Of a stretch of DNA of 64,000 bases, positions 12,655 through 18,820 are shown piece by piece. The stretch is from Bacteroidales bacterium (GTDB lineage: Bacteria; Bacteroidota; Bacteroidia; Bacteroidales; UBA932). The notes below the pieces were generated by a model that ran no database searches, had not been told where the DNA came from, and saw only the letters and a list, made by a program, of their open reading frames with translations. The stretch covers positions 1 through 64,000 of the forward strand of contig JAFUZO010000047.1 in assembly GCA_017476575.1 (NCBI GenBank), read 5' to 3'. Numbering within the stretch: the first letter of the stretch is position 1; every line of letters starts with the position of its first letter. The position numbers and the translations under genes were made by a program.

Positions 12655-15510
12655 CTACAGGCTCCGCTTGATCTCGACAACCTGGAAGGCCTCGATGATA
12701 TCGCCGGGACGGACATCGTTGAAGCGTTCAAGGGCGCAGCCGCATTCGAAACCGGTGGCCACTTCCTTGGCGTCGTCCTTGCCACGCTGGAGCGAGGCGA
12801 GGGAACCGGTATAGACCACGATACCGTCACGGATGAGACGGACCTGGGCCTTGGCGGTGAGCTTGCCTTCCTTGACCTGGCAGCCGGCGATGGTACCGAC
12901 CTTGGAAATCTTGAAGGTCTGCTTGACCTCGGCGGTGGCGGTGACCTCTTCCTTCTTCTCCGGTTCGAGCATGCCTTCGATACCCTCCTTGACTTCGTTG
13001 ATAGCGTCGTAGATGACAGAATAGAGGCGGATTTCGATGCCTTCCTTCTCGGCGGCCCGGCGCGCTTCGGCGGACGGGCGGACCTGGAAGCCGATGATAA
13101 CGGCATCCGAAGCCTCGGCCAGCAGGACATCGGACTCGGAGATGGCACCCACGGCCTTGTGGATGACATTCACACGGACTTCCTCGGTGGAGAGCTTGAT
13201 CAAGGAATCGGACAGGGCTTCCACGGAACCGTCCACATCGCCCTTGACGATGATGTTGAGTTCCTTGAAACTGCCGATGGCGATCCGGCGGCCGATCTCT
13301 TCAAGGGTGAGGTGCTTCTGTGTCTTGATGCCCTGGATGCGGAGCAGCTGTTCCCGCTTGTTGGCGATGGCTTTGGCCTCTTTTTCGTCGGACATGACAT
13401 TGAACTTCTCACCGGCGGCCGGCGCTCCGTTGAGGCCGAGCATCGAAACCGGTGTGGAAGGACCGGCCGCCTCGACCTTCTGTCCCCGTTCGTTGAACAT
13501 GGCCTTGACACGGCCGTAGTAGCTGCCGGAGATGATGACGTCGCCCACGTGGACGGTGCCGTCCTGTACGAGCACGGTGGCGAGGTAACCGCGGCCCTTG
13601 TCCAGGGAGGACTCGATGACGGCGCCGCTGCCGAGCTTGCCGGGATTGGCCTTGAGCTCCAGGAGGTCGGTTTCGAAGAGGACCTTTTCGAGAAGTTTGT
13701 CCACATTGATGCCCTTCTTGGCGGAGATTTCCTGGCATTGGTACTTGCCGCCCCAGTCTTCGACGAGGATGTTCATTTCGGAAAGCTGGCGGCGGATGGT
13801 ATCCGGCTGGGCGCCCGGCTTGTCGATCTTGTTGATGGCGAAGACCATCGGTACGCCGGCAGCCTGGGCATGGGCGATGGCTTCCTTGGTCTGCGGCATG
13901 ACAGCGTCGTCGGCCGCGACGATGATGATGGCCAGGTCGGTCATCTGGGCGCCGCGGGCACGCATGGCCGTGAAGGCTTCATGGCCGGGGGTGTCCAGGA
14001 AGGTGATATGGCGGCCGCTCGGCAGGGTCACGTTATACGCGCCGATGTGCTGGGTGATGCCGCCCGCCTCGCCGGCGATGACGTTAGAATTCCGGATGTT
14101 GTCCAGAAGGGAGGTCTTGCCGTGGTCGACATGTCCCATGACTGTGACCACCGGCGGCCTTTCAACCAGGTCTTCTTCGCGGTCGGGCTCCTGCTGGGTG
14201 ATTTCCTCGGTGAGTTCGGCGGTGATGAATTCGACCTTGTAACCGAACTCCTCGGCGACGAGGACGAGGGTCTCGGCATCGAGGCGTTGGTTGATAGACA
14301 CCATCATGCCGAGGGACATGCAGGCTCCGATTACCTTGACGACCGGGGTGTTGTTCATGAGGGTGGCAAGGTCGTTGACCGTCACGAATTCGGTGACTTT
14401 CAGGACCTTGTTCTCGGCGATAGCCTGTTCCATCTCCTCCTGGGAACGCATGGCGGCGATTTCGCGTTTCTCCTTGCGGTGCTTGGCGCCGAAGTTGTTC
14501 TTCGACTCGTTCATCCGGGCGTAGGTCTCTTTGACCTGCTTCTGGATCTCCTTCTGCATTTCCTCCTGCTCGGCCTCGGTCATGGCTGGCTTGAACCGGT
14601 CTGCGCCACGCTTGCGGCCCTTGCCGGAGGCAGCTTGTTCCTGCTTTTTCTTGTCAGAAGATTTCTTCGGGTTCTTGTCGGCCTGGACCTTGTTGACATC
14701 GACTTTCTGGGAACCGCCGCCTTTGATACGCTCGCGTTTCCCTTTCTTCTTCGGGTCGAACTGGGTGAGGTCGATCTTCCCGATGACCTTGAGTTGGTTA
14801 CCTGCCGGTTTCAGGGTCTCGGCCGGCTGGGGGGGAGCTGTCTCCGCAGGGGTCGGGACGGTCTGGGGCTCCTCCTGCACAGGCTCCGGTCTCTCTTCCG
14901 GGACGGCGGGTTCAGGCTCAGGTTCAAGTTCAGGTTCAGGTTCAGGTTCGGATTCGGATTCGGGCTCCGGCTCTGCGACGGGTTCCAGAGTGGGCTCCAC
15001 AGCAGGCTCCGCGAGGGGTTCTTCCATCACCGGTCCGCTGGCGGACTCGGGTTCCGGTTCCGCAACGGGTTCTTGGATGGGAATCTCAGGTTCTGCGGCA
15101 GGCTCCGCTGCGGGCTCTTCCACCACCGGTCCGGTGGCGGGCCCGGGTTCCGGTTCTACGACGGGAACCTCCGGCTCTGTAACCGGTTCCGCGGCCGAGC
15201 GGGAAAGGTTGGTGCTCTTGATGACCGTCACCCGTTCCGGCTCGTATTCGTCCTCGTCCGTTGTGCCCGGCTGCTTGCGGGCAGCCTTGTCCAGGATTTC
15301 GGTGAGCTTCACATCCACCTTCTCCGCCGCCTCTTTCAGTTCGAGGTCTTTGCCGAACTTCTTGTGTAGTTCTCCCATGTATTCGTCGGACACCTTCATG
15401 TTCGGGTTGGCATTCTCGATGCCGGCTCCCTGCGAATTGAGAAAGTCCACGAGTGTGTCAAGTCCTATGTTGAATTGCTTGATGAGTTTGCTGAGTCTGA
15501 TTTCTGCCAT
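12655..15510 (-). CDS. infB: Translation initiation factor IF-2
   Basis: GTPase that brings initiator tRNA to the 30S subunit. The 951-residue protein has an IF2N-like start ([17 protein letters not shown]), a Pro/Glu-rich repeat region at residues 109-230, a Lys-rich stretch to about 330, a second IF2N-like module, and the GTPase domain. That domain has P-loop [11 protein letters not shown] near 455, DTPGHEAF and INKIDKPG. Domains II-IV follow to the C-terminus. Third gene of the rimP-nusA-infB operon, 33 bp after nusA. Confidence 0.97.
14821..15186 (-). repeat. Pro/Glu-rich degenerate repeat inside infB
   Basis: Residues 109-230 of IF-2 are built from diverged units. Residues 119-150 and 151-179 align as EPEP..A.GPV.EEP.AEPA.EP....EPVA, followed by a run of EP dipeptides. 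At the DNA level this gives a low-complexity stretch prone to length change. IF-2 N-terminal linkers are known to vary in length. Confidence 0.75.
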
Positions 15511-15543: not shown

Positions 15544-16812
15544 CTATTCCTCGAATTCGGCGCGGAGGATGGCCAGCACTTCCTCGACCGTCTCGTCTTC
15601 CAGGTCGGCCCGGGAGGCGATGTCGGCGGGGGAGAGGGCGAGGACGCTGCGGGCGGTGTCGCAGCCGATAGTTTCGAGCCGTTCGATGATCCACGGGTCG
15701 ATGACATCGCTGAATTCGCTCAGGAGCACGTCTTCCTCCTCTTCCTCGTTCTGCGGGAGTTCGCGCCAGACCTCGATTTCGCGGCCGACGAGCATACCGG
15801 CGAGCTTGATGTTGCAGCCGCCCTTTCCGATGCCCTTCTTGACCTCTTCGGCCTGCATGTAGACCTTGATCTTGTCCTCCGGGGATTCACCGAGGTCGAT
15901 GCGGGAAATCCGGGCCGGGTTGAGGGCACGGGTGATCATGAGCTGCGGGTTTGCGCTCCACTGGAGGACATCGATGTTCTCGTTGCGGAGTTCGCGGACG
16001 ATGCCCATGATGCGGGAACCCTTGACACCGATGCAGGCACCGATCGGGTCGATCCGGTCGTCATAGGACTCGACGGCCACCTTGGCCCGCTCGCCCGGGA
16101 TACGGACAACCTTCTTGACGGTGATCAGGCCGTCGTAGATCTCCGGAACCTCCATCTCGAAGAGTTTCTCGAGGAAACTCTCGGTAGTCCGGGAAAGGAC
16201 GATGTACGGCGTGGTGTTGTTCTTCATCTCTACGCTCTTGATGATGGCGCGGACCGTGTCGTTCTTCTTGAAGCGCTCGCCGGGAATCTGTTCGGCCTTG
16301 GGCATGCGGAGTTCGTTGCCGTCCTCGTCGAGGATCAGGACTTCGTTCTTCCAGGTCTGGTAGACCTCGCCGGTGAAGATTTCACCGACCTTTTCGGAGT
16401 ATTTCTTGAAGATGTTGGCCTTTTCGATGTCCAGGATACGGCCCTGGAGGTTCTGGCGGATGTTCAGGATGCCGCGTCGCCCGAACGAGGCGAGGCTGAG
16501 CTTGCGGGTATAGGTGTCTCCGATCTCATAGTCGTCGTCACCGGTCTCGGCGGCGATCTCGTCCACGGTGATCTCGGTCACCGGATTCTCGACCTCCTCG
16601 ACCACCTCGAAATTCTGGTAGATTTCGCAGTCGCCCTTGTCGACGTTGATGATGACGTCGAAGTTGTCGGCGTTGCCGTAGGTCTTCGCCAGCTGGGTGA
16701 GGAACACGTCCTTCAGGACGCCGAGCATGACCGGCCGGTCGATGCTTTTCTCTTCCTTGAAATCCTTGAATGCATCGATCAAGGTGATTTCTTTTTCTTT
16801 CTCTTTAGCCAT
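15544..16812 (-). CDS. nusA: Transcription termination/antitermination factor NusA
   Basis: Binds RNA polymerase and nascent RNA and modulates pausing, termination and antitermination. The 422-residue protein has an N-terminal polymerase-binding domain (about 1-130), an S1 domain (GEIFTGEVYQTW), and two KH domains with GACIGVKGSRIMGIVREL near 267-284 and KGIGKGGCNIKLAG near 330-343. A short helical C-terminal region (ADIASRADLEDETVEEV) resembles a helix-hairpin-helix element. It lacks the two acidic repeats of the E. coli protein, which is normal in this phylum. It may act on the hairpin in its own operon leader. Confidence 0.95.
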   Translation of the reverse strand: MAKEKEKEITLIDAFKDFKEEKSIDRPVMLGVLKDVFLTQLAKTYGNADNFDVIINVDKGDCEIYQNFEVVEEVENPVTEITVDEIAAETGDDDYEIGDTYTRKLSLASFGRRGILNIRQNLQGRILDIEKANIFKKYSEKVGEIFTGEVYQTWKNEVLILDEDGNELRMPKAEQIPGERFKKNDTVRAIIKSVEMKNNTTPYIVLSRTTESFLEKLFEMEVPEIYDGLITVKKVVRIPGERAKVAVESYDDRIDPIGACIGVKGSRIMGIVRELRNENIDVLQWSANPQLMITRALNPARISRIDLGESPEDKIKVYMQAEEVKKGIGKGGCNIKLAGMLVGREIEVWRELPQNEEEEEDVLLSEFSDVIDPWIIERLETIGCDTARSVLALSPADIASRADLEDETVEEVLAILRAEFEE

Positions 16813-16825
16813 GGGTATCGTTTTG

Positions 16826-17293
16826 TTATTTGAAATCGATGTAGGGTGTCACGGAGTTGATTCCGGCGAGCGGATACGTTTCCTCATGCTCCACCTTCAC
16901 TTTCCGCTTGCTTCCTTCGGGTTTTTCCAGGGCAGTGTACCGGAGGGTGATGGAATCTCCGGTCGCGGCCGCGAGCTCGCCAGTGAGGTGCCGTCCGCCC
17001 TTGAACTTGACGTCGACAGGGTTTCCGACCGCCTTGAGGTACTGCTTGAGCACCTTGAACGGCCGGTCCAGTCCGGCGGAGGACACGGTCAGGGCATAAT
17101 CCTCCTCGTCCTGGTTGAAGGCGGCATGGACGAGGGCGTCGACTGCCGCGCAGTCTTCCCAGTCCACGATACCTTCCTCTTTCTCGATGATGATTTCGAT
17201 GTCGTTGTCCCGGCTGACCGTCACGTCGACGATGAAGCAGCCCCTTTCCTGTACTCCGGCCTCCACGGCCTCGATGATCTTAGATTTCTCCAT
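16826..17293 (-). CDS. rimP: Ribosome maturation factor RimP
   Basis: Needed for 30S subunit maturation. The 155-residue protein has the two RimP domains: an N-terminal alpha/beta domain with VTVSRDNDIEIIIEKEEGI near residues 24-42, VSSAGLDRPFK near 70-80, and a C-terminal SH3-like barrel with VDVKFKGGRHLTGEL. The first gene of the operon; its ATG is 8 nt after the T run of a leader hairpin. Confidence 0.93.
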   Translation of the reverse strand: MEKSKIIEAVEAGVQERGCFIVDVTVSRDNDIEIIIEKEEGIVDWEDCAAVDALVHAAFNQDEEDYALTVSSAGLDRPFKVLKQYLKAVGNPVDVKFKGGRHLTGELAAATGDSITLRYTALEKPEGSKRKVKVEHEETYPLAGINSVTPYIDFK

Positions 17294-17300
17294 AATCCCG

Positions 17301-17333
17301 ATAAAAAAAGATAGGGGACCGGCGTCCTCTATC
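17301..17333 (-). terminator. Terminator-like hairpin in the rimP-nusA-infB leader
   Basis: On the minus strand GATAGAGGAC (17333-17324), loop GCCG, and GTCCCCTATC (17319-17310) form a 10-bp stem with one mismatch, followed at once by seven T's (17309-17303). It lies between the rimP promoter and the rimP start codon, so it can end both wbqC read-through and transcripts from the operon's own promoter. Confidence 0.8.
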
Positions 17334-17346
17334 TCGTTCACGGGTG

Positions 17347-17376
17347 CAAAGATACGAAAAATAATCGAAAACCAAA
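17347..17376 (-). promoter_or_regulatory. Promoter of rimP-nusA-infB
   Basis: Minus-strand -7 box TATCTTTG at 17347-17354 with -33 TTTG at 17373-17376 and an 18-nt spacer, the best-formed pair in the window. It predicts a leader of about 50 nt containing the terminator hairpin. Confidence 0.75.
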
Positions 17377-17381
17377 AATAA

Positions 17382-18023
17382 TCACAGTTTCTTGAGCCAC
17401 CGGAGCGCGTCCGGACCTTCGTTAAAGAGGAGGTCCATGACGGAGAGGCCCGGGGTGAAGCCGAAGCGGCCGGCAAAGACTTGGAAATAAGGGCGGTCGA
17501 GGCCGAGGTCGGTGAGGATGGCGTCCGGGCGTTTCGGATGGAGGGTATAGCGCCAGTCGTCCGCAACGGTGGCAGGCGGCGCGAAGTCCGTGGTGGGCTG
17601 AAGGTCGCAGGCGATGCCGGTCCGCTCCAGGAAGAAGCGGATGATGGACAAGTTGAGGTCCCAGAGCGTTTCCGGATGCGCATCCAGCAAGGCGAACAGG
17701 TCGTTCCTGTAATATTCGAACCAAGCGGAGGTGAAATAGGCCGCGTCGATGGCACGTTCGGTCCGCACGACCCAGGGCGTGCTATAATCCACCTTGATCC
17801 GGGTGATTTCCAGGTTGCCGTCATGGATGACAGGAACCTGGAGCTTTTGTACGCCGTCCCCCGCCAGGATGTAGCAGCGGTTGCGGTAAGACTGTTTCTG
17901 ATAGTTCTCGCAGGCTTCCAGCCAGACTGTAGACGGCAAAACCCTGTCTGGAGACAGGGTGAAATCGCGGGCGAGGAGTGCGAAGTACGCGGCCGGCGGG
18001 AAATATGCCGTCGAGAGGAGCAC
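17382..18023 (-). CDS. WbqC-family protein
   Basis: A 213-residue protein of the WbqC family, which occurs near polysaccharide and lipid A genes. Conserved features are LLSTAYFPPAAYFALLAR at the start, WLEACENYQKQSYRNRCYI near residues 29-47, PVIHDGNLEITRIKVDYS, and the AYFTSAWFEYYRNDLFALL block near 94-112. The start is GTG at 18023, sharing one base with the lpxA stop; no upstream ATG gives a sensible N-terminus. Related proteins are suggested to act in glycan or LPS synthesis, but the reaction is not known. Confidence 0.75.
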   Translation of the reverse strand: MLLSTAYFPPAAYFALLARDFTLSPDRVLPSTVWLEACENYQKQSYRNRCYILAGDGVQKLQVPVIHDGNLEITRIKVDYSTPWVVRTERAIDAAYFTSAWFEYYRNDLFALLDAHPETLWDLNLSIIRFFLERTGIACDLQPTTDFAPPATVADDWRYTLHPKRPDAILTDLGLDRPYFQVFAGRFGFTPGLSVMDLLFNEGPDALRWLKKL

Positions 18024-18820
18024 TACTTGCGTGCCTTCGGACGGGGGATGATGCCCCGTTTGGAGCCGCGGATGAACCCGATGATGGTCTCGCGTTCCTC
18101 GGTCTTCGGGAAGTTCTGTTCGATGTAGGCCAGGGCATCGCTGACATTCATGCCCTGGAAATAGAGGGTCTCGTAGATGTCCTTGATCTCGTTGATCTTC
18201 TCCTCGGAGAATCCGCGGCGGGCGAGGCCGATGCGGTTGACACCCTCGAAGCAGATCGGTTCGCGGCCGGCCAGCACGTAGGGCGGGACATCCTTGGTGA
18301 GTTTGGAGGCGCCGCCGATCATGGCATGGCAGCCGACCTGGGTGAACTGGTGGGCCAGCGAGCCGCCGCCCAGGATGGCCCAGTCGGCGATGTCGGTCTC
18401 CCCGGCGATAGCGACCTTGGACACGAGGATGCAGTGGTTGCCCACAGTGCAGTCGTGGGCGATGTGGACATAGGACATGACGAGGGTGTCGCTGCCGATG
18501 CGGGTCACCCCCTTGCCGGAAGCCTTGGTGCCCCGGTTGATGGTGGCGCATTCCCGGATATTGACACGGTCGCCGATCTCGACCCAGGAGACTTCGCCGT
18601 CGAATTTGAGGTCCTGCGGGATGGCGCCGACCACGGCACCCGGGAAGACGGTGCAGTCGCGGCCCATCTTGACATAGGAGAAGATGGTCGCATTCGGCAG
18701 GATGCGGCAGCCGTCACCGATTTCCACGTTGTCGTCGATGAAGACATAGGGCCCGACCTCGATGTTGTCGCCCAGTTTCGCGTTGGGACTGACGGTGGCG
18801 AGCGGATGGATGTTGTTCAT
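18023..18820 (-). CDS. lpxA: Acyl-ACP--UDP-N-acetylglucosamine O-acyltransferase
   Basis: First step of lipid A synthesis: moves a hydroxyacyl chain from ACP to UDP-GlcNAc. The 265-residue protein is a left-handed beta-helix built from hexapeptide repeats (GDNIEVGPYVFIDDNVEIGD and onward). The catalytic His is in MSYVHIAHDCTVGNHC near residues 115-130, and the C-terminal helical domain ends RGIIPRPKARK. It lies 10 bp after lpxC. Confidence 0.94.
   Translation of the reverse strand: MNNIHPLATVSPNAKLGDNIEVGPYVFIDDNVEIGDGCRILPNATIFSYVKMGRDCTVFPGAVVGAIPQDLKFDGEVSWVEIGDRVNIRECATINRGTKASGKGVTRIGSDTLVMSYVHIAHDCTVGNHCILVSKVAIAGETDIADWAILGGGSLAHQFTQVGCHAMIGGASKLTKDVPPYVLAGREPICFEGVNRIGLARRGFSEEKINEIKDIYETLYFQGMNVSDALAYIEQNFPKTEERETIIGFIRGSKRGIIPRPKARK

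Follow-up and report, generated by a model that had tools for sequence, protein, structure and literature searches.

NusA is a global factor of transcription termination and pausing. The closest described system is the rimP-leader (Naville & Gautheret 2010), presented in the main text of PMC2965389 as a short terminator hairpin that lies 4-130 nt before rimP-nusA-infB, has no antiterminator, and is made of arms of the form GGGc...gCCC followed by a U-tract; NusA was proposed as its effector (PMC2965389; Rfam RF01770). Bacteroidota are not named in that main text. In B. subtilis, transcription of the nusA operon is set by intrinsic termination in its 5' leader, which NusA stimulates (Mondal et al. 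2016, as relayed in PMC12288461). In S. agalactiae (gbs0413-gbs0418), RNA-seq placed the end of transcription 31 nt downstream of the start site and ahead of rimP-nusA-infB, and a negative feedback by NusA was inferred (PMC4448216). Upstream of rimP, the metY-rimP-nusA-infB operon of E. coli carries two terminators, t1/t2, of which the latter (GGGCtttagGCCC-T7) lies immediately ahead of that gene, and a reduction in NusA-dependent termination raises the level of the operon transcripts (PMC6511841). An earlier reading of the locus studied here (hereafter the original prediction) had proposed NusA attenuation of rimP-nusA-infB and held that E. coli NusA controls its own operon by another mechanism; the latter statement is doubtful in view of t1/t2 and of the response of the transcripts. 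We found no report of NusA control in the Bacteroidales group in the literature, and the main texts of B. thetaiotaomicron transcriptome papers mention neither rimP nor nusA.

The locus belongs to a 64,000-nucleotide stretch of a Bacteroidales bacterium (assembly GCA_017476575.1, contig JAFUZO010000047.1, positions 1 to 64,000), referred to as the window. All features are on the minus strand and are given in the order of transcription:

17382..18026, minus strand: upstream, co-directional wbqC-like gene, ending in a stop codon some 5 nt ahead of the -33 element
17373..17376, minus strand: -33 promoter element TTTG, read from the sequence
Between TTTG and the -7 box, minus strand: spacer of 18 nt, read from the sequence
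17347..17354, minus strand: -7 promoter element TATCTTTG, of the Bacteroidota TAnnTTTG type (sequence and conservation)
17341..17344, minus strand: predicted transcription start, near 17343, based on the -7 centring seen in B. thetaiotaomicron promoters (PMC7366714)
17324..17334, minus strand: 5' arm of the putative terminator hairpin, AGATAGAGGAC (sequence, fold and conservation)
17320..17323, minus strand: loop GCCG, differing in both sequence and length from one relative to another
17309..17319, minus strand: 3' arm, GTCCCCTATCT (fold and conservation)
17303..17309, minus strand: seven T's, predicted termination zone (sequence and per-position T-richness)
Between the T run and the rimP ATG (17293-17291), minus strand: 9-nt gap ATCGGGATT, read from the sequence
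16826..17293, minus strand: rimP (Pfam RimP_N match)
15544..16812, minus strand: nusA
12655..15510, minus strand: infB

The promoter announced by the original prediction (TTTG, 18 nt, TATCTTTG) is present at 17376-17347 and fits the -7/-33 type of B. thetaiotaomicron (PMC7366714), and the seven T's after the stem are found at 17309-17303. The 10-bp stem does have its ten pairs, with an internal A.C mismatch that had gone unmentioned, and the gap to the rimP ATG measures 9 nt instead of 8. The 40-nt hairpin segment folds with a dG of -14.8 kcal/mol (z -4.0); a possible outer helix CCCG/CGGG in the window fold is not common to relatives. A terminated RNA of about 40 nt is predicted from the position of the U-tract, and it is from the sequence that we infer both the start site and actual termination in the window leader. 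A generic scanner for consensus promoters and terminators, unsuited to Bacteroidota-type promoters, missed the window hairpin, and its matches were no more numerous than in shuffled sequences. We also considered a coding reading, in which a GTG in frame with rimP runs through the hairpin (V-N-E-I-E-D...), and rejected it on the grounds that loop length goes out of frame among close relatives.

The leader resembles the rimP-leader in position (the T run being 9 nt before the ATG), in size, in its G-rich 5' arm, C-rich 3' arm and U-tract, and in containing no larger conserved element or antiterminator. It differs from it by the TAnnTTTG promoter lying ahead and by the stem, which is not an exact GGGc/gCCC: the core is GGGGAC/GUCCCC across the order, and GAGGAC/GUCCCC with the mismatch in the clade of the window. 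Searches against Rfam at gathering and permissive thresholds gave no match in the window, and RF01770 gave no match over its cut-off in 41 genomes, where only scattered low-score matches were seen. Judged by these features, the leader is of the rimP-leader kind in a broad sense and not a member of the Rfam RF01770 family. It is also much shorter than the B. subtilis leader (about 40 nt versus about 180 nt, the latter from the main text of PMC2965389), for which NusA dependence has been demonstrated, whereas the present leader is known from sequence. The S. agalactiae leader, with its RNA-seq evidence, belongs to an unrelated phylum and has another promoter type, and the E. coli operon differs by its multiple promoters, tRNA gene, upstream RNase III processing and two tandem hairpins.

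Homologous loci were picked by RimP or NusA similarity alone, without reference to the leader. A hairpin region precedes rimP in all 30 same-family RimP loci inspected (29 relatives and the window), and TAnnTTTG occurs 18-45 nt upstream of the hairpin in 29 of them, the single exception (L020) having TTCCTTTG instead. The -7 box is kept in 29/31 close-clade, 40/42 family, 21/24 order and 10/14 class leaders, and TTTG stands 16-22 nt before it in 81 of 100 leaders, compared with 4.5 in shuffles. The exact GGGGAC/GTCCCC core is found in 16 of the 24 order-level and 4 of the 14 class-level leaders. In the nearest clade (i.e. rumen Bacteroidales genomes, mostly at 52-75% RimP identity), the GTGAACGAGATAGAGGAC-loop-GTCCCCTATCTTTTTTT block is almost invariant, A.C mismatch included, while the loop differs in sequence and length. 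A model-based alignment (a MAFFT version was dropped, its 5' arm being misaligned) limits the conserved block to the promoter, a short flank, the hairpin and the U-tract. Some covariation is seen in the stem, with double changes at three pairs and a covariation score reached by none of 500 shuffles. Given its fold z-score and its recurrence in homologous loci, the leader element of the window is not due to chance. The conservation of the promoter-hairpin order in nearly all family and order leaders examined and in part of the class strongly supports the layout originally proposed, i.e. an own promoter, then a terminator, then the nusA operon.

The element has its limits. Among the leaders inspected, a comparable hairpin is absent from a few relatives (L146, L156, L157 and L173), and the sequence motif is absent from 15 leaders of other classes of the phylum, most of which have different terminator-like hairpins at the equivalent place. 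In L162-L165 and L169-L174, from these other classes, such sequence-different hairpins combine internal mismatches with long T runs (e.g. GGGGGGC-tcaa-GCCGCCC; GGTGAGCGTC..GGCACTCGC). In two further leaders, L142 (842-914) and L145 (3299-3372), no TAnnTTTG box was found; a tRNA-Gln gene lies directly upstream of the hairpin, an arrangement recalling that of metY-rimP in E. coli.

Genome-wide, a covariance model (R2) built from 56 leaders matched 36 of 150 family genomes, once in each and always just upstream of rimP-nusA; this count is a lower bound, since the strict filters used miss weaker members, and of 19 R2-negative genomes inspected directly, nearly all showed a promoter-hairpin leader ahead of rimP or nusA. 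The exact pattern GGGGACN{3,9}GTCCCC occurs at 48 places in 60 order genomes; 35 of these precede nusA by 461-622 nt, and the other 13 are at unrelated positions.

The nature of the upstream gene bears on whether the hairpin could be a plain terminator of wbqC, as the original prediction had itself envisaged, with an incidental promoter match. In favour of this, six relatives share with the window a co-directional wbqC that stops shortly before the element, and the window hairpin may serve wbqC termination as well. However, 38 distinct loci carrying the leader (43 entries less five repeats of genomes already counted) have a divergent gene, nearly always lpxD, as their nearest upstream neighbour, so that no same-strand upstream gene is there to be terminated. 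As the promoter elements are moreover kept in fixed order upstream of the hairpin, the general form of this explanation is refuted, and we regard it as very improbable overall.

Another role for the hairpin would be that of a 5' mRNA stabiliser or of a translational operator near the start codon. Its position some 10 nt into the predicted transcript, its location as close as 9 nt to the start codon and the weak U-tracts of some leaders (L018 and L023, with GTCCCCTTATTGC and GTCCCCTTATCGC) would suit such a role, and canonical termination may not hold in every leader in view of those poor tracts. Nevertheless, a T-rich tract is conserved downstream of the stem, as seen from per-position T-richness, and the spacing from hairpin to start codon is far from constant (about 8 to 114 nt among relatives, inserted palindromes included), which makes this alternative improbable. 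The palindromes are short repeats of the GATTCCCGG...CCGGGAATGAC type, found between the terminator and the start codon in L063, L065, L066, L067, L069, L070, L073, L075, L083-L085 and L177, and are candidates for a REP-like mobile element.

The leader usually adjoins rimP, the name 'rimP-leader' is in use, and the main text of PMC2965389 names RimP as a possible regulator, all of which could suggest that RimP feeds back on its own operon. This is contradicted by loci in which the two genes are separated. In L062 and L072, rimP is split from nusA; the leader is directly before nusA, elsewhere in each genome, and none was found at the relocated rimP. In L062 (2458-2922, 4204-4364), rimP is separated from the nusA leader by an M23-peptidase-like gene, and rimP is also relocated away from nusA in L072/L177. 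Furthermore, a RimP_N (PF02576) match is missing in 16 genomes, most of them at least 90% complete, whereas control genomes and relatives do match. They comprise part of genus g5 (G004, G075, G098, G109 and G120), g19 (G018, G037 and G055) and g23 (G022, G041, G058, G084, G096, G107, G129 and G149), and rimP thus seems to have been lost in three genera or parts of them. In the four RimP_N-negative genomes examined, the leader immediately precedes nusA, and lpxD lies upstream in divergent orientation. Since the leader follows nusA when rimP is split off or absent, RimP cannot be the general regulator, and we give its feedback almost no credit. Judged by gene linkage, the leader belongs to nusA(-infB), and it displays the linkage to nusA itself that marks a B. 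subtilis-type attenuator. Separately, in G002, G006, G012, G016, G019 and G047 and relatives (L098, L101, L104, L106, L108 and L114), the reading frames ahead of nusA are short and match RimP over only its first 75 residues or so, giving the appearance of a C-terminal domain that is absent or strongly diverged.

The order of promoter, hairpin and U-tract, its conservation, its restriction to one copy in each genome and its linkage to nusA instead of rimP can be read directly from the genomes; that NusA acts at the leader would follow by analogy with the systems described above. The assumed distance from start to stem is about 10-15 nt (median 14 nt), too little to accommodate a riboswitch or aptamer, an antiterminator or a leader peptide; control would therefore most likely come from a factor that acts on the polymerase when it reaches the terminator. 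The connection with NusA is strengthened by the leader staying with nusA when rimP is separated. We thus consider NusA-stimulated termination in the leader, i.e. NusA autoregulation, to be the best explanation and a probable one. A transcript would be started at the Bacteroidota-type promoter, and the polymerase would meet an imperfect intrinsic terminator within about 40 nt; a fraction of polymerases would stop at the leader hairpin, the remainder transcribing rimP-nusA-infB. NusA produced from the operon would stimulate hairpin-dependent termination, so that high NusA would increase termination and low NusA read-through, a negative feedback requiring neither antiterminator nor ligand.

Conservation and linkage leave the effector unnamed, and the same premature terminator could respond to something other than NusA (NusG, Rho, IF2, ppGpp or RNA polymerase supply) or act as a fixed divider of expression. 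infB follows nusA in every split or rimP-less case, so that IF2 and NusA are not told apart as targets, and the highly conserved GGGGAC/GUCCCC stem hints at specific recognition. On the other hand, NusA attenuation of the equivalent operon has been reported for B. subtilis and deduced for S. agalactiae, and feedback exists in E. coli; we consider another effector, or none, unlikely while granting it an appreciable share of probability.

As to the make-up of the terminator, it is where hairpins are weak and U-tracts interrupted that termination in B. subtilis depends most on NusA (PMC12288461). The clade of the window has a stem mismatch and a U-tract of mostly T6-T8, while the rest of the family and order have perfect stems with T runs of mostly 3-4; this opposition between mismatch with long U-tract and perfect stem with interrupted U-tract in most other Bacteroidales is suggestive only. 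We do not claim compensation between the two as a rule: it is a trend of Bacteroidales that fails at the class level, where perfect stems with long T runs occur, and the sequences are phylogenetically dependent. We tentatively entertain, as possible though not favoured, a terminator specific to nusA and not rimP, found across Bacteroidales and part of the class, whose GGGGAC/GUCCCC stem would serve NusA recognition or tuning and which would be held short of full efficiency, whether through a stem mismatch or through an interrupted U-tract.

Altogether, a probable NusA-sensing attenuator, one that the Rfam model does not recognise, is conserved across a major group of gut and rumen bacteria. 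As natural cases of rimP relocation and loss indicate, the 'rimP-leader' of Bacteroidales is really a nusA(-infB) leader, which narrows the gene it serves. With its predicted length of about 40 nt, this leader would offer a minimal template on which to test how NusA acts in Bacteroidota.
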